Positions 539 through 52,507 are shown, counted from the first letter of the stretch. The stretch: 64,000 nucleotides of DNA from a bacterium (GCA_025774935.1 JALGZK010000001.1:186001-250000), one strand, 5' to 3'. Notes: generated by a model from the letters alone, not told the origin. Numbers and translations: made by a program.

Positions 539-1792
539 ATGAAGAGGACTCGTTTGCTGCTGCTCAGCCTCGTGGCCGTCGGCACGGTGCTGTTCTTCGT
601 CGGTTGTGACCTTCTCGAAGAGGATGAGATCCCCGTCAGCGCTGATCTTCTGTTCGCGAGCGGCATGAACGATCTTCAGGGAGAGCTGACCGAGCTGAAC
701 CTCGAGAACCCGATCTGGGACTGGGATGTGAACGTCTCCGGTCCCCTCAGCGACTTCGAGGACGCGCTCGATGCCGACCCCGAGCACTGCGGGGCCCTCC
801 TGATGGCGGGCCTGACGAGGCTCATCGAGGTAGTGACGGATCCCGACCTCGCGGACATCCTCGAGGACATCTTCGGCGGCGATGTCCGGGCATCGCACAA
901 GTTCCCGCTCATGTGGTACGTGGACGTTCCCGGCGCCGTCGATGCGAAGCGGGTGCTCCAGTCGCTCGACCACAGGCGCCAGGACCCGTTCGAGATCTCA
1001 CTCCTTCAGGAGTACATCGAGGACGAGGTCATTCCGGCGCTCGAGTACACCGAAGGCAACCTGATGGACTTCCAGGACCTCGACTGCGAGGTCAACCTGG
1101 AGATCCCGATCGAGGACGCCTCGCGCGACACCATGTGGATGCTCGTGGATCTCGACGCGACCGACGTGGCCTTTGCGATGGCCCCGCTGCACGCGATCAT
1201 GGGCGCCCTGGAGATGATCGTCGCGTACAACATGGACGTGACTCAGGGCCAGACGCTCGAGGAGCTCCTCACGACGGATCCGGACTTCCTGAGTCTCAGG
1301 GCCGGAAGCCACATGCCGACCGCCTTCGGCTACTTCAGCGACATTCACGACGACCTGAGCGACGCGTGCACGATGCTCCAGAACGAGACGGGCGATCAGA
1401 CGTTCGACCTCATCACGGAGCTCTACTGGGACGGGGGGATGTACATCGTCCTCGAGGACATGTTCGGACCGGCGCCGTGTGACACGATCCGGGCGTACGC
1501 GGACCTGATCTACGACGCGCTGAACGAGCCGATCGTCATCAACCCGTCCGACGAGGAGCCGGGAGCTCCGGACATCGACATCACGATCGACGTCTCGCAG
1601 TTCTTCAACGATCCCCTCGATCCGCTGACCGACTACTTCCCGGAGTTCGTACCGGTCTGGCCGGACCCGAACGACCTGGACGGTGCGTTCGTCGAGCCGG
1701 TGAACTTCCCGGACCCGACGTTCGAGGGAATCCTCCCGGGCATGTCGAACGCCGAATGGCAGGAGATCATCGACTGGCTGGACGAGACGTAG
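539..1792 (+). CDS. Acidic predicted lipoprotein of unknown function
   Basis: The 417-residue product begins MKRTRLLLLSLVAVG and has a hydrophobic stretch ending in F-V-G-C (Cys23), a plausible although not ideal lipobox, so it is probably lipid-anchored and exported. I chose the ATG at 539 because a strong GCGGAGGAGG ribosome site lies directly upstream and the signal peptide starts there; a longer frame to 428 would begin inside the promoter. The mature protein is rich in Asp and Glu. Around residues 80-100 the pattern A-L-x-x-D-P-x-x-x-x-A-L-L-M-A-G-L is reminiscent of a single TPR-like helix pair. I do not recognise a family. A strong hairpin follows at 1864, so the gene is probably monocistronic. 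Confidence 0.75.
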   Translation: MKRTRLLLLSLVAVGTVLFFVGCDLLEEDEIPVSADLLFASGMNDLQGELTELNLENPIWDWDVNVSGPLSDFEDALDADPEHCGALLMAGLTRLIEVVTDPDLADILEDIFGGDVRASHKFPLMWYVDVPGAVDAKRVLQSLDHRRQDPFEISLLQEYIEDEVIPALEYTEGNLMDFQDLDCEVNLEIPIEDASRDTMWMLVDLDATDVAFAMAPLHAIMGALEMIVAYNMDVTQGQTLEELLTTDPDFLSLRAGSHMPTAFGYFSDIHDDLSDACTMLQNETGDQTFDLITELYWDGGMYIVLEDMFGPAPCDTIRAYADLIYDALNEPIVINPSDEEPGAPDIDITIDVSQFFNDPLDPLTDYFPEFVPVWPDPNDLDGAFVEPVNFPDPTFEGILPGMSNAEWQEIIDWLDET

Positions 1793-1863
1793 CCCAGCCG
1801 CCGCGCTCTGTCCGATCGAGCGAGAGGCCGGACCGCCGGGGGAAACTTACGGCAGCAGTTGCA

Positions 1864-1893
1864 GACGCGGGCATCGACGACGGTGCCCGCGTC
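1864..1893 (+). terminator. Strong hairpin, probable terminator
   Basis: A perfect 10-bp inverted repeat (GACGCGGGCA at 1864-1873, TGCCCGCGTC at 1884-1893) has a 10-nt loop. The downstream tract CGTCCGTTCC is only weakly T-rich, so termination efficiency is uncertain. Confidence 0.5.
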
Positions 1894-1940
1894 GTCCGTT
1901 CCGGGAGTGCAATGTTACGGTCCTCGGGCACGAGGTGTGC

Positions 1941-1969
1941 TTGACTTGGAGGACGCGCGCACATAGGAT
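1941..1969 (+). promoter_or_regulatory. Sigma-70-type promoter for the nuclease/ATPase/CHAT operon
   Basis: TTGACT at 1941-1946 and TAGGAT at 1964-1969 are 17 nt apart. The predicted start site near 1976 lies 30 nt before the TTG start at 2006, giving a short leader that contains the ribosome site CCGGAGG. Confidence 0.65.
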
Positions 1970-2005
1970 TTCAGACGAAAGCGCACTGCCCTCCCGGAGG
2001 CACCG

Positions 2006-3148
2006 TTGCCCGTTCTCGTCCACACCTCAGACGTCCACGTCGGCGCGCCGCTCGGCTGGCTCGGCGACCGCGCGGCCGAGCAGCGAGAGCAGATCCGGCG
2101 CACGTTCGCATCGATCGTCGACCTTGCGCTCGAGGAGAAGGCCGACTGCCTTCTGATCGCCGGTGACCTCTTCGATTCCGGCGTCCCGCCGTCATCGGAC
2201 GTCCGGCTCGTCCTGCAGGAGATCGGGAGGTTCACGAGTCAGTCGGAGGGTGCGGCGGTCATCCTCCCGGGCTCGCACGACTCGCTCGGGACCTCGTCCG
2301 TCTACACGAGCTACGGCGATGAGTTCGCGCGCGTCCCCCGGCTCTTCATCCTGGGCGACGACGATCGGACGACCGTCGATCTCGCGGCCCCCGGAGTCTC
2401 AGTGCGAGGGACCGCCCTCCGCTCGAACCGCTCCACGTCCCATCAGCTAGCGGGCCTCGCGCCGAGCGCCGACCTTCCGTTCAGCGTCGCCGTCGCGCAC
2501 GGCTCCGTGAACGTGGTCCCTGTGGATCCGGACGATCATCCCATCGAGCTCGACGAACTTGCCGCGCGGGGGTGGGCGTACTTCGCCCTGGGGCACTGGC
2601 ACTCCTGGCGGGAGATCGAAGGCGCGTCGGCGCCGGCGGTGTACGCGGGGGCGCCGGAGATCATGGCAGTCGATCAGACGGGGGCCGGGTACGTCGCGGT
2701 CGTCCACCTCGGCACGGACGGAGCGACGGTCCGGAAGCACCGCGTCGGTGTGAGGTCGGTCGCAGGACTCGCCGTCGACGTGGGCGAGACGGCGGACGCC
2801 TCGGCGTTCGCCGCACGCGTGCGCGAGACCGTCTCCCCGGACCCCGACACCATACTGAGGCTGGCTCTCTCGGGTCTTCTGGCCGTCGACTCCGGGTTCG
2901 ACGAGTCGACCTTCACGGAGGCCATCCGGGGCGACTACTTCCACGTCGTGCCGGGCGACCGGACGTACCACCTCCGGCTCGACGGCGACGACCTGGCGCG
3001 TCTGCCGGAGCGGCTCGTGATCGGCCAGTTCGCGCGCCTGATGAAGAGGCAGCTGGACGAGACGACGGGCGAGGAGCAGAGGCGCGAGATCGAGGACGCA
3101 CTCCAACTCGGCGTCGCGCTCCTGCAGGGGAAGGACGTTCTCCGGTGA
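2006..3148 (+). CDS. SbcD/Mre11-like (YhaO-type) metallophosphoesterase nuclease
   Basis: The 380-residue protein has the calcineurin-like phosphoesterase motifs in order: HTSDVHVG near residue 6, AGDLFDSG near 52, PGSHDS near 89, an AHGS histidine near 161 and ALGHWH near 196. This matches the SbcD/Mre11/YhaO family, exonucleases that work with a Rad50/SbcC-type ATPase at DNA ends. The usual GNHD motif reads GSHD, so the metal-binding Asn is replaced by Ser. TTG at 2006 is chosen because GGAGG lies 5 nt upstream and the conserved N-terminal strand begins there. The stop overlaps the GTG start of the ATPase gene, so the two are translationally coupled. I am sure of the fold and partner; activity is less certain because of the Ser. 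Confidence 0.88.
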   Translation: MPVLVHTSDVHVGAPLGWLGDRAAEQREQIRRTFASIVDLALEEKADCLLIAGDLFDSGVPPSSDVRLVLQEIGRFTSQSEGAAVILPGSHDSLGTSSVYTSYGDEFARVPRLFILGDDDRTTVDLAAPGVSVRGTALRSNRSTSHQLAGLAPSADLPFSVAVAHGSVNVVPVDPDDHPIELDELAARGWAYFALGHWHSWREIEGASAPAVYAGAPEIMAVDQTGAGYVAVVHLGTDGATVRKHRVGVRSVAGLAVDVGETADASAFAARVRETVSPDPDTILRLALSGLLAVDSGFDESTFTEAIRGDYFHVVPGDRTYHLRLDGDDLARLPERLVIGQFARLMKRQLDETTGEEQRREIEDALQLGVALLQGKDVLR

Positions 3149-5322
3149 GGATCCGTCGCGTCAGACTTGTGAACTTCCGGCGGTTCCGCGACCGCGAGGT
3201 CAGCTTCGGCCCGGGACTGAACCTGATCGTGGGTCCGAACGAGGCCGGCAAGAGCACGATCCTAGACGGAATCGCGACGGCTCTCTTCTGCGACGTCGCG
3301 TCGACGGCGAAGGCGGTGAAGGATCTCGAGCGCTGGGGCTCGAAGGGCGCCATGCGCCTCGAGCTCGACTTCGAGCACGACGGCGAGATCTACCGCCTGC
3401 GGAAGGACTTCGGGGCTCGTCGGGCCGTGCTCGAGAAGGGGGACGGGTCCGAGACTCTCGGCGACAGGGGAGAGGTTGAGGCCCGTCTTCGCGAGATGGT
3501 GGGATTTCGGGAGCAGCAGGCGTTCGAGTCGGTGGCGGCGGTCCGACAGGGAGAGCTCGCGGCTCTCGAGGGAAAGGGGGGGAAGTCGAGACGCTCGGAT
3601 CTCCTTCCCATGATCGAGAAGAAGATGACGAGCTCGAGCGGGGCGACCGACGCGGCGGGGGTCATCGGACGACTTGAGAAGTCGATCGCGGCAATGGGTG
3701 TGGGGGTCAAGCGCCTCGCCGACCGGCCGGGACCGATTCGATCGCTGATGGACCAGGAAGAGGAGCTCGCCGAGAGGATATCGAGGTCGGGTAAGGCGTG
3801 GGCCGACGCCGTGAGGACGCGGAAGGAACTGACGTCGGAGCGAGCAGATCTCGCGAAGGCGGAGCAGCGCCTCGAATCCATCGAGGGAATGCTCGAGTCG
3901 GAGGGTGCGAGGAGCAGGTACGTCGCGGAGCTCGAGGACGTGCGGCAGAAGCTCTCCCGGAACGCCTCCGAGGTCGGCAAGCTCCGGAAGCTCAAGACCG
4001 ACATCGCCGAAGCCTACGAGGGCATCGACGGGACCCTCCCGGAGCTCGGCAAGACCGTGGAGGAAGCGAAGCGCGACTTCGATGCCGCGGGAGAGAGGAT
4101 CGCGAAGCTCGAGGAGCGATCGCCGGCCGGCGATTGGAGGACCGCCTCGAAGCGACCGGGTGCCGCGGCCATCGTGCTCGGTGCCGCCGCGCTCGCGCTC
4201 TTCTTCGCGCCCGTCTACGCGCCGATCCCGCCGGGTGTGCGCCTGTGGCTCATCCTGGGCGGGGCCGCGCTCGGTGCGCTCACGGTCTACTTCTTCCGCA
4301 GGGGCGCCCGGCTATGGGGGTTCGCGCACGACATGCAGCGCGAGCTCGGGGAGAAGGAGAGGGCCGAGAGGTCGTACCGGGAGGCGCTCGGCGCTGCGGG
4401 CGTCTCCACGTACGAGGAGTACGGCCGCCTCGCCGCCAGGCAGCAGGAGCTCCACGCCAGCATCCAGAAGTGGAACGCGCTTCTGCAGGAACAGACGGGG
4501 GAGGGAGACGCCGACAAGTTCGAGGAGAGCTTGCTGACTGACGGCGCCGCCCTCGAGCGCCGCGCCGGTGAACTCGAGGAGAAGCTCGAGGAGAGCGGTG
4601 GCGCGGAGAACGTCCTGTCCCCTGTCGAGGCGGCGCGGCTGAGGAACGAGAGGAACGGACTGCTCGAGACGATCGACCGTCTGCGGAAGAGCACGATAGC
4701 GAAGGAGGTCCGGCTCGAGGAGGCGGCCGTGGACACGGCCCTGCCGGACCTGGAGGCGCGTCGTGAGAACGTCGCGCGCGAGCTCGCGCTCGTGCTCCGG
4801 AGGGAGCGCGTGCTGCGGCTCGCTCACGAGGGACTCCTCACCGCGCTCGACAGAACGAAGAGAGAGGCCTCGACGGCCCTTGCGCCGGTGGTGTCCCGCG
4901 TGCTGGGCGGAGTGACGCTCGGACGATACTCGGACGTCAGCGTTGCGACCGATCTCGAGTTCAGCGTGAAGAACCCGGACCCGGTCGAAGGTGCGCCTCC
5001 CACTCTCGGCGGGGACGAGCTCAGCGCCGGGACGATCGACCAGTTCTACCTGGCCGTCCGCTACGCGCTGCTCGAGTTCCTGTCCGGACCGTGTGGAGCG
5101 CCGTTCCTGCTCGACGACGTGCTGGTGCACTTCGATCCGGAGAGGCGGGATGCCGCGATCGGCGTCCTGCGGGAGATCGCGCGCCAGCGGCAGGTCATCA
5201 TGCTCTCCTGTGAGAACCACGCTGCCGAATCGGCGGACGAGGTCGTCCGGCTGGACGGAGTGAACGCGGGGAGCGCGTCGCCCGGAGGCGAGGCGCCTCA
5301 GGAGGTGCCGCGTGAGAGGTGA
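3145..5322 (+). CDS. SbcC/Rad50-like (YhaN-type) ATPase with two membrane helices
   Basis: The 725-residue product is an AAA-type coiled-coil ATPase. Walker A is GPNEAGKST (residues 30-38), the signature is LSAGTIDQ near 635, and Walker B with its Asp pair is FLLDDVLVHFD near 653-663. Two long coiled coils flank a central hydrophobic segment (roughly 340-388) that reads as two membrane helices. There is no CxxC zinc hook. This is the layout of YhaN rather than classical Rad50 and implies that the coil apex is anchored in the membrane. GTG 3145 overlaps the nuclease stop, and the gene's own end overlaps the CHAT gene by 11 nt. The protein presumably forms a nuclease-ATPase complex with the upstream product. 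Confidence 0.88.
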   Translation: MRIRRVRLVNFRRFRDREVSFGPGLNLIVGPNEAGKSTILDGIATALFCDVASTAKAVKDLERWGSKGAMRLELDFEHDGEIYRLRKDFGARRAVLEKGDGSETLGDRGEVEARLREMVGFREQQAFESVAAVRQGELAALEGKGGKSRRSDLLPMIEKKMTSSSGATDAAGVIGRLEKSIAAMGVGVKRLADRPGPIRSLMDQEEELAERISRSGKAWADAVRTRKELTSERADLAKAEQRLESIEGMLESEGARSRYVAELEDVRQKLSRNASEVGKLRKLKTDIAEAYEGIDGTLPELGKTVEEAKRDFDAAGERIAKLEERSPAGDWRTASKRPGAAAIVLGAAALALFFAPVYAPIPPGVRLWLILGGAALGALTVYFFRRGARLWGFAHDMQRELGEKERAERSYREALGAAGVSTYEEYGRLAARQQELHASIQKWNALLQEQTGEGDADKFEESLLTDGAALERRAGELEEKLEESGGAENVLSPVEAARLRNERNGLLETIDRLRKSTIAKEVRLEEAAVDTALPDLEARRENVARELALVLRRERVLRLAHEGLLTALDRTKREASTALAPVVSRVLGGVTLGRYSDVSVATDLEFSVKNPDPVEGAPPTLGGDELSAGTIDQFYLAVRYALLEFLSGPCGAPFLLDDVLVHFDPERRDAAIGVLREIARQRQVIMLSCENHAAESADEVVRLDGVNAGSASPGGEAPQEVPRER

Positions 5323-6814
5323 TCGCTGCCCGCGCTGCGGGGCGCGTCTCGAGCTCGTCGGTGAGCGGTGGGACTCTGGAGACGGTCGAATAGGCCGCAC
5401 GCTGCGCTGCGGCAGTTGCGGCGGCGTGTTCGACGCACGAGGAGGCGGTCCCGGGGGCCAACGAGGCCGGCCTGCCCCGGCCGCGTGCGCCGCAGCGGCG
5501 CTCCTCTGGGCCGTGGTCCTCCTCGCCGTTCTGTGGGTGGTTCTGAGACTGCTCCCGTACGGTGGGCGAGCGCAGGTCTACCGTGCGGCGTCTGCGTTCG
5601 TGGAGGGCTTCCTCCACCCGCTGTGGTTGGCGGCGCTCGTCCTCGCCGGCGTCGCGCTCTTCCTGTGGAAGCGGCGGGCGTCTCGCGTGGAGCTGGCGCC
5701 GGCCGCGGCGGTGGCGCCCGACGTCCATCTTCGTGCCGAGCCGCCCGGGAAGATCACCGCAGTGATCTCCGACTCGCGTGGGGCGGCGGTGCGGGACTTC
5801 GTCGTCGAGCGGAGCCCTGAGGCCGAGGAGCGCATACTCGCGGGCCTCCGCGAGCTGGCCGCCAGGAGCGCCGCCTTCGACCACGCGCGGGAGGGCGGAG
5901 CGACGGACCGTACCGCGTCCCCCGAGGAGGTGGCGGAGACGCAGCGCCGGATCTACTCCCTCGGGCTCGAGATCGGCGTGTCGCTTCTGGGAGGCGACTC
6001 GGGAGCGGGGCCCAGGATCGCCGATCTGCCGGGCGATCATCTGCTGCTCAGGATCCAACCCGAGCTCTCGCGCATTCCCTGGGAGCTCCTCGTGCCGCGC
6101 CCCGGGGGGCAGTTCCTGTGGCAGCTCTTCCACACGTCCCGACAGATCCGCACGGAGACCGCCGGACGGACGGCGGGAGCGAGACGGTGCGCTCCCCTCA
6201 GGGTGCTGCTCATGGCGAACCTCGAGGCCGGACGCTCCGGCCGCGATCTTCCGCACGCCGAGCGCGAGGCGGCCGAACTGCTCGAGCTCGCTGCGTCGCG
6301 CCCCGACCTCCTCAAGGTCGAGAGGAAGTCGCCGAGGACGCACGCGGAGTTCGCGACACTCCTCTCGGAGGGATTCGACGTCGTCCACTTCGCGGGTCAC
6401 TCGCTCGGTAGCCACGCGGGGGCGGGGTGGGATCTCGGTGAGGGGGAGGGTATCACCCTCGACGCACTCGGACCCTGTCCGGAACGGACCCCTTCGCTCG
6501 TCTTCGCGAACACGTGCGGCACGGACGGCGGCGATGTGGGAGCGGAGAGCCGCTCCTGGGACGCGGCCCGTCACTTCCTCGAGTGGGGCGTCCAGGCATA
6601 CCTCGGGACGCTCTGGGACCTTCACGACGGCGGGAGCGCGAGGTTCGCCGGCGTCTTCTACCGGCGGCTCGCCGCGGGCGCCACGCTCGCGGCGGCGGTC
6701 TCGGCGGCGCGCTCGGCACTCCTCGGCGTCGAGCCCGTCACCTGGGCGAACTACGTCCTGTACGGGGACCCCGCGCTCGTCGTAGCGGCCGCCTCCGGGC
6801 CGATTCGGTCGTAA
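5312..6814 (+). CDS. Membrane-anchored zinc-ribbon CHAT-domain cysteine protease
   Basis: The 500-residue product starts with a zinc ribbon (Cys6, Cys9, Cys33, Cys36), followed by two predicted membrane helices (about 58-82 and 101-120) and then a long cytosolic region. Residues about 240-490 form a CHAT domain (caspase/separase-like peptidase): the catalytic His lies in VVHFAGHS (His363) and the Cys in VFANTCGT (Cys402), followed by the typical W-G-V-Q-A-Y-L-G-T-L-W and Y-V-L-Y-G-D-P-A segments. GTG 5312 has GGAGG upstream and overlaps the ATPase gene, so the protease is co-expressed with a DNA-end nuclease and ATPase. CHAT proteases in other systems are activated by bound sensors and cleave defined proteins; the target here is unknown. 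The next gene is an ECF sigma factor 92 nt away. Confidence 0.9.
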   Translation: MRGDRCPRCGARLELVGERWDSGDGRIGRTLRCGSCGGVFDARGGGPGGQRGRPAPAACAAAALLWAVVLLAVLWVVLRLLPYGGRAQVYRAASAFVEGFLHPLWLAALVLAGVALFLWKRRASRVELAPAAAVAPDVHLRAEPPGKITAVISDSRGAAVRDFVVERSPEAEERILAGLRELAARSAAFDHAREGGATDRTASPEEVAETQRRIYSLGLEIGVSLLGGDSGAGPRIADLPGDHLLLRIQPELSRIPWELLVPRPGGQFLWQLFHTSRQIRTETAGRTAGARRCAPLRVLLMANLEAGRSGRDLPHAEREAAELLELAASRPDLLKVERKSPRTHAEFATLLSEGFDVVHFAGHSLGSHAGAGWDLGEGEGITLDALGPCPERTPSLVFANTCGTDGGDVGAESRSWDAARHFLEWGVQAYLGTLWDLHDGGSARFAGVFYRRLAAGATLAAAVSAARSALLGVEPVTWANYVLYGDPALVVAAASGPIRS

Positions 6815-6906
6815 AGCCCGTCCGGGGCCGACGACTGCCCCGCCGTGACGCTCGTACTCCCGCGAAGAAGACCGGGCTCCCGAACGACTGTTGTATGAGG
6901 AGAGGA

Positions 6907-7539
6907 ATGTCCGCCTTGGCGAGCCGTGGAAAGATCGGTGCCGACGATGCGCGCATGATCGACCGCCTGAGGGCCGGCGAGTCCGAGGCCTGGGAGGCGT
7001 TCGTGGAGCGCTATCGGAAGCTCATCTACAGCGCAATCGTGCGATCGAACGCTCGCTTTCGTGCGGAGTGGGACGAGACGGCGATGGAGGAGATCTTCCA
7101 GGAAGCGGTCTTCAAGCTCCTGCGGAGGAACGGCAGAGCGCTCGCGTCCTGGAAGGGCGACTGCCGCCTCGAGACCTGGATCTACCGGATCGTGCGGAAC
7201 GTCTGCATCGACGTACTGAGGAAGCGGTCGCGGCGCCGGGAGTCCGACGAGCTCCCAGAAGACGGTGAAGGTCGCGCGGTCGCGGGAACGCCACGCGGAC
7301 CGGGGACGCCGGAGAACAGGGATCTCAGGATATCCCTCGAGCAGGCGATCGACCGCTCGCTGTCATCGAAGGAGGCGCTCGTGGTCCGACTGATCTACTT
7401 CGAGGGGTTCACGTACCGGGAGGTCGCGGAACGCATGGGCGTGAGCGTGGGCGCGATGAGCGGTCTGGTCTTCCGCGCGCTCGCGAAGCTCCGCACGGAC
7501 GGCGGAGTGAACAGGGAGTGGGAAGGGGAACGAGGATGA
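6907..7539 (+). CDS. ECF-type RNA polymerase sigma factor
   Basis: The 210-residue protein has sigma region 2 (FVERYRKLIYSAI near residue 21, then the WIYRIVRNVCIDVLRK segment) and region 4 (YFEGFTYREVAERMGVSVG helix-turn-helix near the C-terminus), with no regions 1 or 3, as in extracytoplasmic-function sigma factors. ATG 6907 is chosen because AGGAGAGG precedes it; ATG 6895 in the same frame is the alternative. The zinc-finger gene that follows starts inside the stop codon (ATGA), the usual arrangement for a sigma factor and its anti-sigma. No terminator or convincing promoter lies in the 92 nt after the CHAT gene, so read-through from the upstream operon is possible. Confidence 0.92.
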   Translation: MSALASRGKIGADDARMIDRLRAGESEAWEAFVERYRKLIYSAIVRSNARFRAEWDETAMEEIFQEAVFKLLRRNGRALASWKGDCRLETWIYRIVRNVCIDVLRKRSRRRESDELPEDGEGRAVAGTPRGPGTPENRDLRISLEQAIDRSLSSKEALVVRLIYFEGFTYREVAERMGVSVGAMSGLVFRALAKLRTDGGVNREWEGERG

Positions 7540-8414
7540 CGAAGGACGGATGTCCTGCGGGAGAAAAGCTCCTGGGACTCGTGCGGGACGCTCTCGACGA
7601 CGGGGCGTCGAGTCGCGTCCGGGCGCACGTGAGTTCGTGCGAGGCGTGCCGGGAGCGAGCCGCCGGACTCGAGGAGCTCGTCGGACTGCTGGAACGCGCG
7701 GCGACGGAGCCGCTTCCTGACGATCTCGAGCCCTCCCGGGCGGCCTGTCCCGATCCCGAGCTCGTCGCGGCTTACGCGGACGGCTCATCGGACGAACACG
7801 CGTCCGCCCTCGTCGAGCGACACCTCGCAGGATGCGCTTCCTGTCTCGCCGAGGTCGCCGACCTTTGGCGCCTCTCTTCCGCCGGGAGCCCAGTCGACGC
7901 GCCAGACCGAGCGGTCAGCGCGGCAATCGCGCGTCTCGAGTCGGAGGCGCGGACCGCGATCGTACGGTGGGCAGGCGCGACCGTCTCCGTGGTGAAGGAC
8001 TTCGCGCGGTCCCAGGCGGAGGCCCTCGAAGGAGCTGGCCGAGGCGCGCACGAGCTCGCGCCCGCGTTCGCGCGGGGGAGCGACGAAGCCGTGCTGCTCT
8101 CCTGGCGCGGCGACGACGATCTCCTGCTCGAAGGCAGGATCGACATCCGAGGAGGAGGGCGTCCCGCCCTCACGGGGAGACTGACGCGTCTCGGGAGCCC
8201 CGATCTCAGCCTCTCCGCTGCCATGAGCGGGGACGGGGAGCGGCACGGCCCCGAGTCGCTGGACTCCGACGGGCGGTTCGGGCCCTGGGCCCTCGCCCGA
8301 GGCCAGAACACCCTTCGCGTCACTGGCAGGACCGTCGGCGAGCGGGGGCTCTCGCTGACGATCGAGATCACCGAGGACAACGCCGAGGATCCGACCGAGA
8401 TCCCGGCCGAGTAG
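7536..8414 (+). CDS. Soluble anti-sigma candidate with two zf-HC2 zinc fingers
   Basis: The 292-residue protein has two zinc-finger units with identical spacing: Cys6, His31, Cys35, Cys38 and Cys71, His96, Cys100, Cys103. The H-x3-C-x2-C core is that of zinc-binding anti-sigma (ZAS/zf-HC2) domains. No membrane helix is visible, so it should be cytoplasmic. The C-terminal half (about 170-290) looks beta-rich and unrecognised. Start ATG 7536 overlaps the sigma-factor stop and has AGGGGAACGAGG upstream. By family precedent it would hold the ECF sigma factor inactive; what releases it is unknown, but a CHAT protease is encoded two genes upstream. Confidence 0.8.
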   Translation: MTKDGCPAGEKLLGLVRDALDDGASSRVRAHVSSCEACRERAAGLEELVGLLERAATEPLPDDLEPSRAACPDPELVAAYADGSSDEHASALVERHLAGCASCLAEVADLWRLSSAGSPVDAPDRAVSAAIARLESEARTAIVRWAGATVSVVKDFARSQAEALEGAGRGAHELAPAFARGSDEAVLLSWRGDDDLLLEGRIDIRGGGRPALTGRLTRLGSPDLSLSAAMSGDGERHGPESLDSDGRFGPWALARGQNTLRVTGRTVGERGLSLTIEITEDNAEDPTEIPAE

Positions 8415-8446
8415 GGCCGCATCGAGGATTCCTCCTGAATCACTCC

Positions 8447-8476
8447 GCGGCCTCTTGAGCCCGTCCGGGCCGCTTT
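8447..8476 (+). terminator. Possible terminator after the anti-sigma gene
   Basis: GCGGCC at 8447-8452 and GGCCGC at 8468-8473 form a 6-bp stem with a 15-nt loop, followed by TTT. The stem is short for its loop, so the call is tentative. Confidence 0.35.
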
Positions 8477-8556
8477 GAGCACACGCGCAGGTTCCTTCCT
8501 CTATATCACATGACATCCACTCTCACGTGCCGGACGGCCGGCTGAGCCCGCCATCG

Positions 8557-8572
8557 TGGCACACGACTTGCA
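8557..8572 (+). promoter_or_regulatory. Sigma-54 promoter for the histidine kinase/GGDEF operon
   Basis: TGGCACACGACTTGCA matches the -24/-12 consensus TGGCACG-N4-TTGCA at every fixed position but one, with exactly 12 nt between the GG and GC elements. The predicted start is near 8583, about 125 nt before the kinase start. It lies in the 294-nt gap between 8415 and 8708; apart from the weak hairpin at 8447 I see nothing else there and no clear activator site. Confidence 0.75.
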
Positions 8573-8708
8573 TTTAGGGTGCGCACACGAGGTCTCTCGG
8601 GCGCGTGACCCGGAGGGGGTCGCGCGATTGAGAGGAACCGCCTTTCCCACGGGTGGTCCGGAGACGCCTCGGCGCGCGCGGGTCGAGAGGGTCTCGGGGG
8701 GTTGCACG

Positions 8709-10907
8709 ATGCACGACATCCCACGCCATCTAACGCCGGACATGGAAGAGGCGCCGGACCCGATGCGAGGTTCCGCGAGCGCCCCGGCAAAGGCCGCGAC
8801 CGGACGAGCGTGGTGGCGACCGGTGGTCGCCGCGGCGTTCGTCCTCGGTCTCGCCGTCCTGCAGATGGACTGGACCCACTGGGCGGCCGTCGGTCTCATG
8901 GGAGCGCTCGGACTCGCAACGGGCCTCTTTGCATTCCCGGTCGGGAAGAACACCTACGTCAGCTTCGGAGCGGCCGTCTTCATCGCCTCGACGGCGCTCT
9001 TCGGCCCGAGTGTCGGGGTTTGGGTCGCCGCGATGTCAACGGCCGCCGTCCAGCTCGTGTGCTTCCGGCACGACACGACGGTCGCGATGCGGGAGATGGG
9101 AGTACAGGTAGTGGCCGTGTTCGCCGCGGGGTGCGCGTACTCCTTCACGGGAGGGAAGCTCCTGACCGGCGGGATCACGTTCGCGGACTCAGCGCGATTC
9201 GCCTTGATGTTCGGAATCTACGGCGCGGCAAGTGTCCTCGTCCGGCGCGCCGCCGGGGGAGAGATGCGGAGGACCGTCGCGAGCTACCTCCGCTGGATGA
9301 CCGGGCGCGGGGTAGTCGTCGAGCTCGCCATGCTTCCCCTCGCGCTCCTCCTCGCTGCGGCTTACATACCCGGAGAGCCGGCGACCTTCCCGCTGCTCGC
9401 GGTCGTGCTCATCGTGTCGAGCGCAGCCGGGAAGATGATGTGGGACACCAAGCAGTCGCTCGAGAAGAGCGTCACCGAGCTCAGGACACTGAACACGGTC
9501 GGGAAGGTGCTCTCCTCGACACTCAAGCTGAACGACCTGCTCGAGGAACTCGAGGAGAGCACGAGCTCCCTCTTCGCGGACTCCATGTGCTCGGTCTGCC
9601 TCTACCACGAGTCCACCGGCGAGGTCGAGTACAGGGTGAACATGAGCAGCTCGCGTCGACTGCCGCCGCGCCGGAGGAAGCCCGGCGACACGCTCATCGG
9701 CTGGGTCATCCGCGAGCGCGCGATGCTCCTCGTCGACGACCTGAGGAGTCACGACGGACAGACGCTCGACCCCTGGCTCGCGGAGCAGAACGAGCGGGCC
9801 GGCGTGGAGGCGGTCACGTGGCTCGGCGTGCCCCTCGTCTCGCGCGAACGGCTGGTCGGCGTGCTCACGATCCTGAGCTCGCGTCCGAAGGCGTTCGGGA
9901 AGGACGAGGTCGATCTTATCGTCACTCTCGGAAGTCAGGTCGCGAAGGCCATCGAGAACGCGAGCCTCTACGCGGGGCTCGAGCAGTCGCGCACGAACGT
10001 CGAGGAGTGGAACAAGGAGCTCGAGGAGAAGGTCGAGGAGCGCACGGCGGAACTCGAGGAGATGAAGGCGGAGCTGGAGGTCCTGAACCGCGAGCTCGAG
10101 GAGCGCGTCGAGGTCAGGACGAACGAGCTCCAGGAGATGGAGGCGCGCGTCGTCCAGTCGGGGAGGCTTGCTGCGGTCGGCGAGATGGCCGCGGGCGTAG
10201 CGCACGAGCTCAACAATCCGCTGGGAGGCATCCTCGGCTACGTCCAGTACGATCTCGAGAAGATACTCGGGAAGGACGGCTCGCCGCTGACGCCGGATGA
10301 GGTGGACAAGCTCGCAAAGCACCTGGTCTCGATCGAGAAGGCGTCGCAGCGATGTCGGGGCATCGTCCAGAGCCTCCTGACGTTCTCGCAGGCCTCGCAG
10401 TCAGCGTACTCCGAGATCAACCTCAACGACGTCCTGAGCGAGGCCCTTCGCGTCACCGGCAGGCAGCTGACCGCACGCGGCATTCGGCTCACGTCCGGGC
10501 TGGACACCTCGGAGCTCACCGTGCTGGGCGACCCGTACCAGCTGCGTCAGGTCTTCGCGAACCTCATCTTGAACGCGAGGGACGCGATGACGTCGGGCGA
10601 TGCGCTGACCGTTCGCTCGATTCGGACGGAGGACGCCGACGGCACGACGAGCGCCGAGGCAATCTTCGAGGACACAGGGTGCGGGATCGCCGAGGAGAAC
10701 CTCGTGCGCGTCTTCGAGCCGTTCTTCACGACGCGGCCGACCGGTGAGGGCACCGGACTGGGGCTCTCCGTGAGCTACGGCATCATCAAGGACCACGGGG
10801 GACAGATCGAGGTGGCGAGCCAGGTAGATAAGGGGACGATCTTCACCGTCCGCCTGCCGCTCGTTGAGTCGCGCGTTCAGCTGGAACCGGTCGGAGGAGC
10901 CAAGTGA
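8709..10907 (+). CDS. Membrane-bound GAF-domain sensor histidine kinase
   Basis: The 732-residue protein has about eight predicted membrane helices (residues 40-240), a GAF domain (roughly 265-420), a coiled coil rich in Glu and Leu, then the HisKA box with phospho-acceptor His499 in GVAHELNNPLGG, and the ATPase domain: N-box NLILNARDAM, FEDTGCGI, FEPFFTTRP and GEGTGLGLS. The start is uncertain: ATG 8709 follows a G-rich tract, and in-frame ATGs exist at 8742 and 8763. A sigma-54 promoter lies upstream. The stop overlaps the GTG of the response-regulator gene (GTGA), so the pair is co-translated and likely forms a phosphorelay. The signal sensed is unknown. Confidence 0.9.
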   Translation: MHDIPRHLTPDMEEAPDPMRGSASAPAKAATGRAWWRPVVAAAFVLGLAVLQMDWTHWAAVGLMGALGLATGLFAFPVGKNTYVSFGAAVFIASTALFGPSVGVWVAAMSTAAVQLVCFRHDTTVAMREMGVQVVAVFAAGCAYSFTGGKLLTGGITFADSARFALMFGIYGAASVLVRRAAGGEMRRTVASYLRWMTGRGVVVELAMLPLALLLAAAYIPGEPATFPLLAVVLIVSSAAGKMMWDTKQSLEKSVTELRTLNTVGKVLSSTLKLNDLLEELEESTSSLFADSMCSVCLYHESTGEVEYRVNMSSSRRLPPRRRKPGDTLIGWVIRERAMLLVDDLRSHDGQTLDPWLAEQNERAGVEAVTWLGVPLVSRERLVGVLTILSSRPKAFGKDEVDLIVTLGSQVAKAIENASLYAGLEQSRTNVEEWNKELEEKVEERTAELEEMKAELEVLNRELEERVEVRTNELQEMEARVVQSGRLAAVGEMAAGVAHELNNPLGGILGYVQYDLEKILGKDGSPLTPDEVDKLAKHLVSIEKASQRCRGIVQSLLTFSQASQSAYSEINLNDVLSEALRVTGRQLTARGIRLTSGLDTSELTVLGDPYQLRQVFANLILNARDAMTSGDALTVRSIRTEDADGTTSAEAIFEDTGCGIAEENLVRVFEPFFTTRPTGEGTGLGLSVSYGIIKDHGGQIEVASQVDKGTIFTVRLPLVESRVQLEPVGGAK

Positions 10908-11875
10908 TTACCCCCGAACACCTGCATCACGAAGGCGAAGAGACCGAGGAGTGTCAGACTCCCAGACTCCTCATCGTCGACGATGAGGAGATCATGCGCG
11001 AGTTCCTGAAGGAAGTGCTCGGGGACGAGGGCTACGTCATCGATCTCGCGTGCTCCGGCACCGAGGCTGTGACGAAGATGACCGAGGGCAAGTACGATGT
11101 CGTGATCACTGACATCGTGATGCCCGAGCTCGACGGGCTCGGCGTGGTCGCGGCGGCCAAGCAGCTGCCGTACGAGGTCGCCGTGATCGTGATGACAGGA
11201 TACGCTTCCATGGAGACCGCGGTCGAGTCGATGAAGCTCGGCGCCTCCGACTACATCACGAAGCCCTTCAACATCGATCAGATCCGAATCATCGTGTCCA
11301 ACACGCTCGAGGCGCGCGCGCTCCGGAAGAGGGCGGCCGAGGGCGAGTTCTACAAGGAGCTGTCCCGGAAGGACGGCCTCACCGAGCTCTACAACCACAG
11401 GTTCTTCCACCAGCTCCTGGACACCGAGGTGTCGCGAGCCCAGCGCTACGGCAGGGTCGTGAGCCTTCTCATGATCGACATCGACGACTTCAAGCGGTAC
11501 AACGACTCCCACGGGCACCCTGCGGGAGACCTCATCCTGAGGCGGCTGGCGCGGCTCGTGAAGCGCTCGTCGCGTAACTGCGACTTCGTCGCCAGGTACG
11601 GTGGCGAGGAGTTCGCCGTCATCGTCCCGGAGGTCAAGGCGGACGCGGCGCGGCGCATGGCGGAGCGGGTCAGGGCCCTCATCGACGAATCGGAATTCGA
11701 GGGGGAGGAGACCATGCCAGGCGGGCGGCTGACGATCTCGATCGGCGTCGCCACGTTCCCGGTTCAGGCGGGCAGCAAGAGCGAGCTCCTCGGGAACGCC
11801 GACAAGGCACTCTACGAGGCCAAGGCGAAGGGTAAGAACCGCGTCGTCGTCTTCGGCGAGGAGGCCGTGAACTAG
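10904..11875 (+). CDS. Response regulator with GGDEF domain (PleD-like diguanylate cyclase)
   Basis: The 323-residue protein begins with a receiver domain (LIVDDEE near residue 24, phospho-acceptor Asp70 in VVITDIVMP, Lys in DYITKPF) followed by a GGDEF domain. The active site reads GGEEF (233-237), which is catalytically competent in the family, and RNCD (224-227) lies five residues upstream, matching the RxxD inhibitory site for c-di-GMP feedback. GTG 10904 overlaps the kinase stop and has GGAGGAG upstream. The product should make cyclic di-GMP when phosphorylated by the adjacent kinase, linking a sigma-54-driven sensor to the motile/sessile switch. A strong terminator follows. Confidence 0.93.
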   Translation: MITPEHLHHEGEETEECQTPRLLIVDDEEIMREFLKEVLGDEGYVIDLACSGTEAVTKMTEGKYDVVITDIVMPELDGLGVVAAAKQLPYEVAVIVMTGYASMETAVESMKLGASDYITKPFNIDQIRIIVSNTLEARALRKRAAEGEFYKELSRKDGLTELYNHRFFHQLLDTEVSRAQRYGRVVSLLMIDIDDFKRYNDSHGHPAGDLILRRLARLVKRSSRNCDFVARYGGEEFAVIVPEVKADAARRMAERVRALIDESEFEGEETMPGGRLTISIGVATFPVQAGSKSELLGNADKALYEAKAKGKNRVVVFGEEAVN

Positions 11876-12928: not shown

Positions 12929-13226
12929 GAGGGTCTTTCGCTCTGGTGCGCTAGACGGGGAACTAGCGGTGCCCTGTGACCCGCAATCCGCTACAGCGGG
13001 GTCGAACATCCACACGAGGCCTTTCACCGTCGACAGCGAGCGCGGACAAGTAGCGTCGAAGGCCAGGTCCCGCGCAACCGAGTCCGGTGAAGCCGGTCAG
13101 GGCCGGGAGGCAGCAGCCGTAAGCCGGTTCCTCGGTGTGCCGCGGGGAAGCTTGGCTGGAGCCAACTGGCCGCGTGACCTTCGGTGGTGGGGGTCGACGT
13201 GGACGCGTGCCAGAGCGAAGTAACCT
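12929..13226 (+). ncRNA. ffs: Signal recognition particle RNA, large bacterial type
   Basis: The ends pair over a long helix: TTTCGCTCTGGTGCG near 12936 matches CGTGCCAGAGCGAAG near 13206. The 5' part has the conserved Alu-like domain (GCTAGACGGGGAACTAGCGG, then GGTGCCCTGT and CCGCAATCCGCT). The distal helix 8 with the Ffh-binding bulge is visible as GTCAGGGCCGGGAGGCAGCA near 13098. The length of about 290 nt fits the large SRP RNA class rather than 4.5S. It lies between tRNA-Ala and dnaX, as scr does upstream of dnaX in Bacillus subtilis. Exact ends are uncertain by about 10 nt. Confidence 0.92.
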
Positions 13227-52330: not shown

Positions 52331-52352
52331 GGCTAGCAGAGTCGAATAGCGC

Positions 52353-52473
52353 GTTCCTTCGGGGCGGGGTGGAAGTCCCCACCGGCGGTGAAAGCCCGCG
52401 AGCGGACCGAGAGGTCTCGCAGAGCCTGTGAAATCCAGGCGCCGACAGTGAGAGTCTGGATGGTAGAAGGAAC
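52353..52473 (+). promoter_or_regulatory. FMN riboswitch (RFN element)
   Basis: P1 is closed by GTTCCTTC (52353-52360) and GAAGGAAC (52466-52473). Inside are the invariant pieces GGGGCGGGGTGGAAGTCCCC, ACCGGCGGTGAAAGCCCGCGAG, and CCGACAGTGAGAGTCTGGATG. Binding of FMN should favour the terminator at 52508 and switch off ribD-ribE-ribBA-ribH. Confidence 0.97.
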
Positions 52474-52507
52474 AGCCGCGCGAGCGGAGTGTGCTCGACG
52501 CGTCGAT

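Follow-up and report, generated by a model that had tools for sequence, protein, structure and literature searches.

Organization of the locus

The window, that is, the whole stretch of 64,000 nucleotides of bacterial DNA that was analysed, contains a conserved unit of five genes encoding an Mre11-like nuclease, a Rad50-like ATPase, a CHAT protein, an ECF sigma factor and an anti-sigma factor, as recognized from open reading frames and domain searches in the window and from its relatives. The genes and their putative promoters are as follows.

1941-1969, plus strand: sigma70-like promoter TTGACT-17-TAGGAT, the sole such match in 1790-8700
2006-3148, plus strand: Mre11/SbcD/YhaO-like metallophosphoesterase with a TTG start; PF00149 (Metallophos), 3.9e-9
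3145-5322, plus strand: Rad50/YhaN-like ATPase; AAA_23, 8.6e-17, and AAA_27, 2e-12
5312-6814, plus strand: zinc-ribbon, two-helix, CHAT caspase-like protein; PF12770 (CHAT), 9.8e-25
6863-6888, plus strand: candidate ECF-type promoter CGAAGAA-N15-CGAC, 5′ of the sigma gene
6907-7539, plus strand: ECF sigma factor; Sigma70_r4, 8e-12, and TIGR02937, 8.5e-28
7536-8414, plus strand: double-zinc-finger anti-sigma factor; zf-HC2 twice

Only 0.1 sigma70-like sites are expected in 1790-8700, and most relatives other than those of genus g4 have a comparable site ahead of the nuclease gene. The original prediction had described three overlapping genes served by one promoter. Its domain assignments agree with the reading frames and domain matches apart from minor corrections, and the lone sigma70-like site and the overlaps within the window stand, but the unit has five genes and a second candidate promoter lies at 6863-6888.

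The nuclease and ATPase genes share 4 nt, an overlap kept in all relatives read but one. The ATPase and CHAT genes share 11 nt in the window, and the distance between them varies from -11 to +181 nt among relatives, with overlaps in G000, G002 (-11) and G007 (-4). This second overlap is thus not unique to the contig, but neither is it conserved, and the proposed translational coupling to the CHAT gene is therefore not general. In genus g4 (L038, L044, L048, L049), a strong hairpin lacking a T-run, with seemingly compensating changes, was noted by eye in the gap between the ATPase and CHAT genes, where it may set CHAT levels.

Several further features surround the unit. A predicted lipoprotein (542-1792; signal peptide with a VGC lipobox, no Pfam match) is encoded directly ahead of the nuclease in most of the relatives read. 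A GAF-domain histidine kinase and response regulator/GGDEF pair (8556-11875) follows the anti-sigma gene across the phylum and is also present in G003, a genome without the CHAT, sigma and anti-sigma genes (hereafter the triad). The large bacterial SRP RNA (12946-13210) lies just 5′ of dnaX, and an FMN riboswitch is found at 52351-52475.

The Mre11/Rad50-like pair

A metallophosphoesterase and a Rad50-type ABC ATPase are encoded in one operon, the arrangement by which SbcCD and Mre11-Rad50 systems are recognized. The nuclease scores 61 bits against the NCBIfam SbcD model, short of the curated cut-off of 77.65, and the window's genome yielded no further strong SbcD-like gene. The residues at its ligand positions are D9, H11, D54, S90, H91, H165, H197 and H199. 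The full set of Mre11 metal ligands (D, H, D, N, H, H, H, H) is not present, with Ser or Cys in place of Asn in all members, and the window's protein carries GSHD where Mre11 has GNHD. GTHD occupies the same position in several related pairs from outside the phylum, so the missing Asn is in part a trait of the subfamily.

Erosion of the nuclease site goes further in genus g4, where the last His of GHxH is replaced by Arg, Gly or Pro and one member also lacks the first His. This genus nevertheless keeps its ATPase motifs and its CHAT dyad, a pattern consistent with a sensor role for the complex. The change of GDLFD to GDLFH in the same genus was considered as a further loss and rejected, as Mre11 of T. 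maritima has GDLLH.

The Walker A, signature and Walker B motifs of the ATPase are conserved. No CxxC zinc hook was found in any ATPase of the family; instead, as originally predicted, two hydrophobic helices (339-357 and 365-383) in the middle of the coiled coil form a hairpin in its place.

The CHAT protein

The third protein combines a zinc ribbon of four cysteines (C6, C9, C33 and C36), two helices (60-78 and 100-118) and a CHAT domain whose His/Cys dyad, H363 and C402, is invariant wherever the sequence is complete, which bears out the original description of its architecture and catalytic residues. By domain and dyad it belongs to the CHAT peptidases, and proteolysis is its predicted activity. 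The window's genome has a single CHAT gene. One relative, G008, has a CHAT protein without the first membrane helix (L132) and, on another contig, a CHAT start with the helix; these two forms possibly represent two strains.

In a structure model of moderate confidence (pLDDT 65), the closest fold match is separase, with a Z score of 23 over 320 residues, followed by Csx29 (Z 18.7), SAVED-CHAT (17.3) and DdvA (16). A separase-like pocket for a P1 Arg was also considered, given that D439 aligns with the aspartate of the separase LWDVTD motif. No specificity is claimed, because the pocket residue of separase lies four positions beyond that aspartate.

The sigma and anti-sigma factors and their candidate promoter

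The ECF sigma factor is the best conserved of the five proteins, with 69% mean column identity. Its regions 2 and 4 and an adjoining HxxxCxxC anti-sigma factor are the features by which ECF sigma/zinc-finger anti-sigma pairs are identified. The anti-sigma factor carries two HxxxCxxC zinc fingers in all members, and no membrane helix is predicted in most of them. Its model shows two zinc-finger domains, both helical, then a linker of low confidence (115-182) with an invariant Arg180 at its end, and a beta-sandwich (185-278). Residues 2-69 match ChrR (Z 9.9, from the structure model), and the C-terminal domain gives only middling sandwich matches (Z < 8).

At 16/16 loci that could be read, representing seven genera, the motif CGAAGAR-N15-CGWC lies 5′ of the sigma gene; its spacing is always exact, and the sequence of the spacer varies. 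The motif appears in shuffled 100-nt regions at a frequency of at most 3e-4. It falls within the CHAT coding end in genus g4 members (e.g. L044) and past the CHAT stop in others, and is thus conserved independently of coding. Its position and form fit a candidate ECF-type promoter for the sigma/anti-sigma pair, which probably has a promoter of its own, and its occurrence at every sigma gene, even where it is embedded in the last part of the CHAT frame, fits autoregulation. Folded as RNA, the spacer between the CHAT and sigma genes is no better than shuffles.

The window's genome contains 61 matches to the motif, the sigma-gene site included. When the regions around them were scanned for open frames, the remaining 60 all proved to lie inside frames of at least 116 codons, and none is convincingly placed as a promoter; the strict pattern therefore predicts autoregulation only. 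The sigma gene was likewise the sole clear case among the 24 sites of G013 and the 30 of 45 sites searched in G006, the latter genome also yielding additional weak candidates, L229 and L233 among them.

Distribution within and outside the phylum

The phylum was sampled with 20 genomes, all of one family, and tblastn with all five proteins showed that the relatives share the five-gene order. CHAT and nuclease genes are each present in 18/20 genomes, and the ATPase and CHAT genes adjoin in 16/20. The exceptions are G015 and G017, cut at contig ends, G012, which is 57% complete, and G003, which has no CHAT gene. The predicted link between an Mre11/Rad50-like pair and a membrane CHAT protein is thus real within the phylum, where CHAT adjoins the pair in related genomes as well. 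Conservation is mostly vertical within one genome family, and the kept order therefore counts for less than if the genes had come together independently.

G003, estimated to be 100% complete, is the informative exception. It keeps the nuclease and ATPase genes, has no CHAT match anywhere in the genome and lacks sigma and anti-sigma genes at the locus, where the pair is immediately followed by the same histidine kinase and GGDEF response regulator. The three genes are thus missing as a block, and the triad behaves as a single unit. The locus is single-copy and chromosomal and, across the phylum, syntenic with tadA and dnaX; as a core, syntenic locus it shows neither the patchy distribution nor the defence-island context of mobile defence systems.

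Searches of 386 genomes with CHAT and ATPase profiles found the two genes adjacent in this phylum only. Among the 15 nearest CHAT loci read outside the phylum, none has an Mre11/Rad50-like pair beside CHAT (0/15), and sigma and anti-sigma genes are close by in 8/15, a count in which some of the remaining loci stop at contig edges. In L116, L118 and L120, CHAT is fused to a guanylate cyclase (class III nucleotide cyclase), TPR and CsgG domains and lies beside ECF sigma/anti-sigma genes, and L123 and L124 encode CHAT proteins with PEGA and a redoxin neighbour. The cyclase, TPR, CsgG and PEGA domains of these outside proteins point to other signals, possibly from the envelope. Related Mre11/Rad50 pairs occur outside the phylum without CHAT, and the nearest of them (L128 and L129) adjoin UvrD-PDDEXK helicase-nucleases, which supports a DNA-end role for the pair. 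With each module separate elsewhere, the locus therefore represents the joining of two known modules in this phylum.

Proposed mechanism and alternatives

Our leading reading, held at somewhat below even confidence, is that the five genes form one signalling unit in which a DNA-end sensor would drive the CHAT protease to relieve the anti-sigma factor and so free the ECF sigma factor, by analogy with Craspase and with CalpL/CalpT/CalpS. Damage to DNA, or the ends of foreign DNA, might in this way turn on genes through proteolysis. A YhaO/YhaN-type Mre11-Rad50-like complex would be held at the inner membrane by the hairpin in the Rad50 coiled coil and, by way of ATPase cycling, would sense DNA ends or DNA that is stalled or blocked by protein. 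The complex would then activate the neighbouring CHAT protease, which is likewise anchored in the membrane and has a catalytic domain of predicted cytoplasmic orientation, for cleavage of the soluble double-zinc-finger anti-sigma factor, perhaps in the flexible linker. The freed sigma factor would transcribe its own gene and that of the anti-sigma factor from CGAAGAR-N15-CGWC, plus a regulon, while the housekeeping promoter at 1941 would maintain basal levels of sensor and protease. The original prediction of a proteolytic switch was right about the CHAT link but missed the sigma/anti-sigma pair, in view of which the likely output is a switch in transcription instead of general proteolysis. 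It is possible, though in our judgement less likely than not, that the locus serves as an SOS-independent bacterial DNA-break checkpoint, with the membrane Mre11-Rad50-like sensor activating a separase/caspase-like protease to free the ECF sigma factor.

The main rival is that the pair and the triad lie side by side but do not touch: a membrane Mre11/Rad50-like pair for repair would share its locus with a CHAT-sigma-anti-sigma triad responding to a signal from the envelope or elsewhere. We give this a substantial though minority likelihood. The pair and the triad are each found without the other outside the phylum, G003 has the pair and no triad, the sigma gene has its separate candidate promoter, and the variable gap between the ATPase and CHAT genes, reaching 181 nt and holding the hairpin in genus g4, speaks against a single unit. 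However, all genera with CHAT preserve the adjacency and order, both modules are membrane-anchored, the genes overlap in the three genomes named above, and in genus g4 the nuclease site erodes next to an intact triad.

Separase cuts the kleisin of cohesin and thus acts on an SMC complex. By analogy, and in view of the separase match of the CHAT model, CHAT might act on the Mre11/Rad50-like complex or a DNA-bound partner, with sigma and anti-sigma regulating expression only. This we consider unlikely: the five genes include no apparent kleisin-like product, CHAT is accompanied by sigma and anti-sigma genes also where Mre11/Rad50 is absent, and separases are CHAT relatives, so that the match may show common descent alone. 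Least probable is the anti-phage or abortive proteolytic switch suggested originally, since, although CHAT proteins and Rad50-like ATPases are known in defence systems and the ATPase gives weak PADLOC matches, mostly to its P-loop end, a core single-copy locus syntenic beside tadA and dnaX, with CHAT in nearly all genomes sampled and no PADLOC match for CHAT, sigma or anti-sigma, makes a mobile defence role unlikely and lends a phage trigger no support.

If the signalling-unit reading is true, a universal family of DNA-end sensors would be tied to a protease of the caspase/separase type and to a sigma factor of its own, as a non-CRISPR counterpart of Craspase, and the poorly studied membrane-anchored YhaN-type Rad50 proteins would gain a signalling role.

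Comparison with known systems

The phosphoesterase and Rad50-like ATPase genes are adjacent as in SbcCD/Mre11-Rad50 and in YhaO-YhaN of B. subtilis, and other YhaN/Rad50-like ATPases also have predicted membrane hairpins. The window's pair differs from SbcCD in falling below the SbcD cut-off, in lacking the zinc hook, in having GSHD for GNHD and in its link to CHAT and sigma.

Among protease-controlled sigma systems, a close parallel in composition is Craspase of type III-E CRISPR (Cas7-11/Csx29 TPR-CHAT, Csx30 and CASP-sigma), in which Csx29 cleaves Csx30 and thereby relieves CASP-sigma (PMC10028731). Both systems co-encode a nucleic-acid sensor (a role proposed here for the pair), a CHAT protein, an inhibitor and an ECF sigma factor, and their CHAT folds match with Z 17-19. 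The sensor of Craspase, however, is RNA-guided, whereas that of the window is an Mre11/Rad50-like pair; the window's inhibitor of ECF sigma is a tandem zinc-finger protein, its CHAT protein is membrane-anchored and lacks TPR, and the five-gene unit contains no CRISPR genes. A cascade of protease, anti-sigma and ECF sigma is also shared with CalpL/CalpT/CalpS of type III CRISPR, where CalpL cleaves CalpT, which is bound to CalpS (PMC11417357). Unlike the window's unit, that system uses a Lon protease with a SAVED sensor of cyclic oligoadenylate.

In DdvA of Myxococcus xanthus (PDB 8rot, 8rw5), a membrane protein, the zinc-finger anti-sigma and CHAT domains are part of one chain, whereas in the window they are separate proteins, accompanied by an Mre11/Rad50-like pair. 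CHAT genes adjoin ECF54 sigma genes, as one does the sigma gene of the window, but ECF54 has been described without an anti-sigma factor (PMC8999054), which the window's unit possesses, and no Mre11/Rad50 has been reported for it. A literature search for Mre11/Rad50 with CHAT found no description, in line with the original statement that no system of this composition was known. The combination of Mre11/Rad50, CHAT and sigma is real, conserved and undescribed in the literature searched, and would be a variant of protease-controlled ECF signalling.
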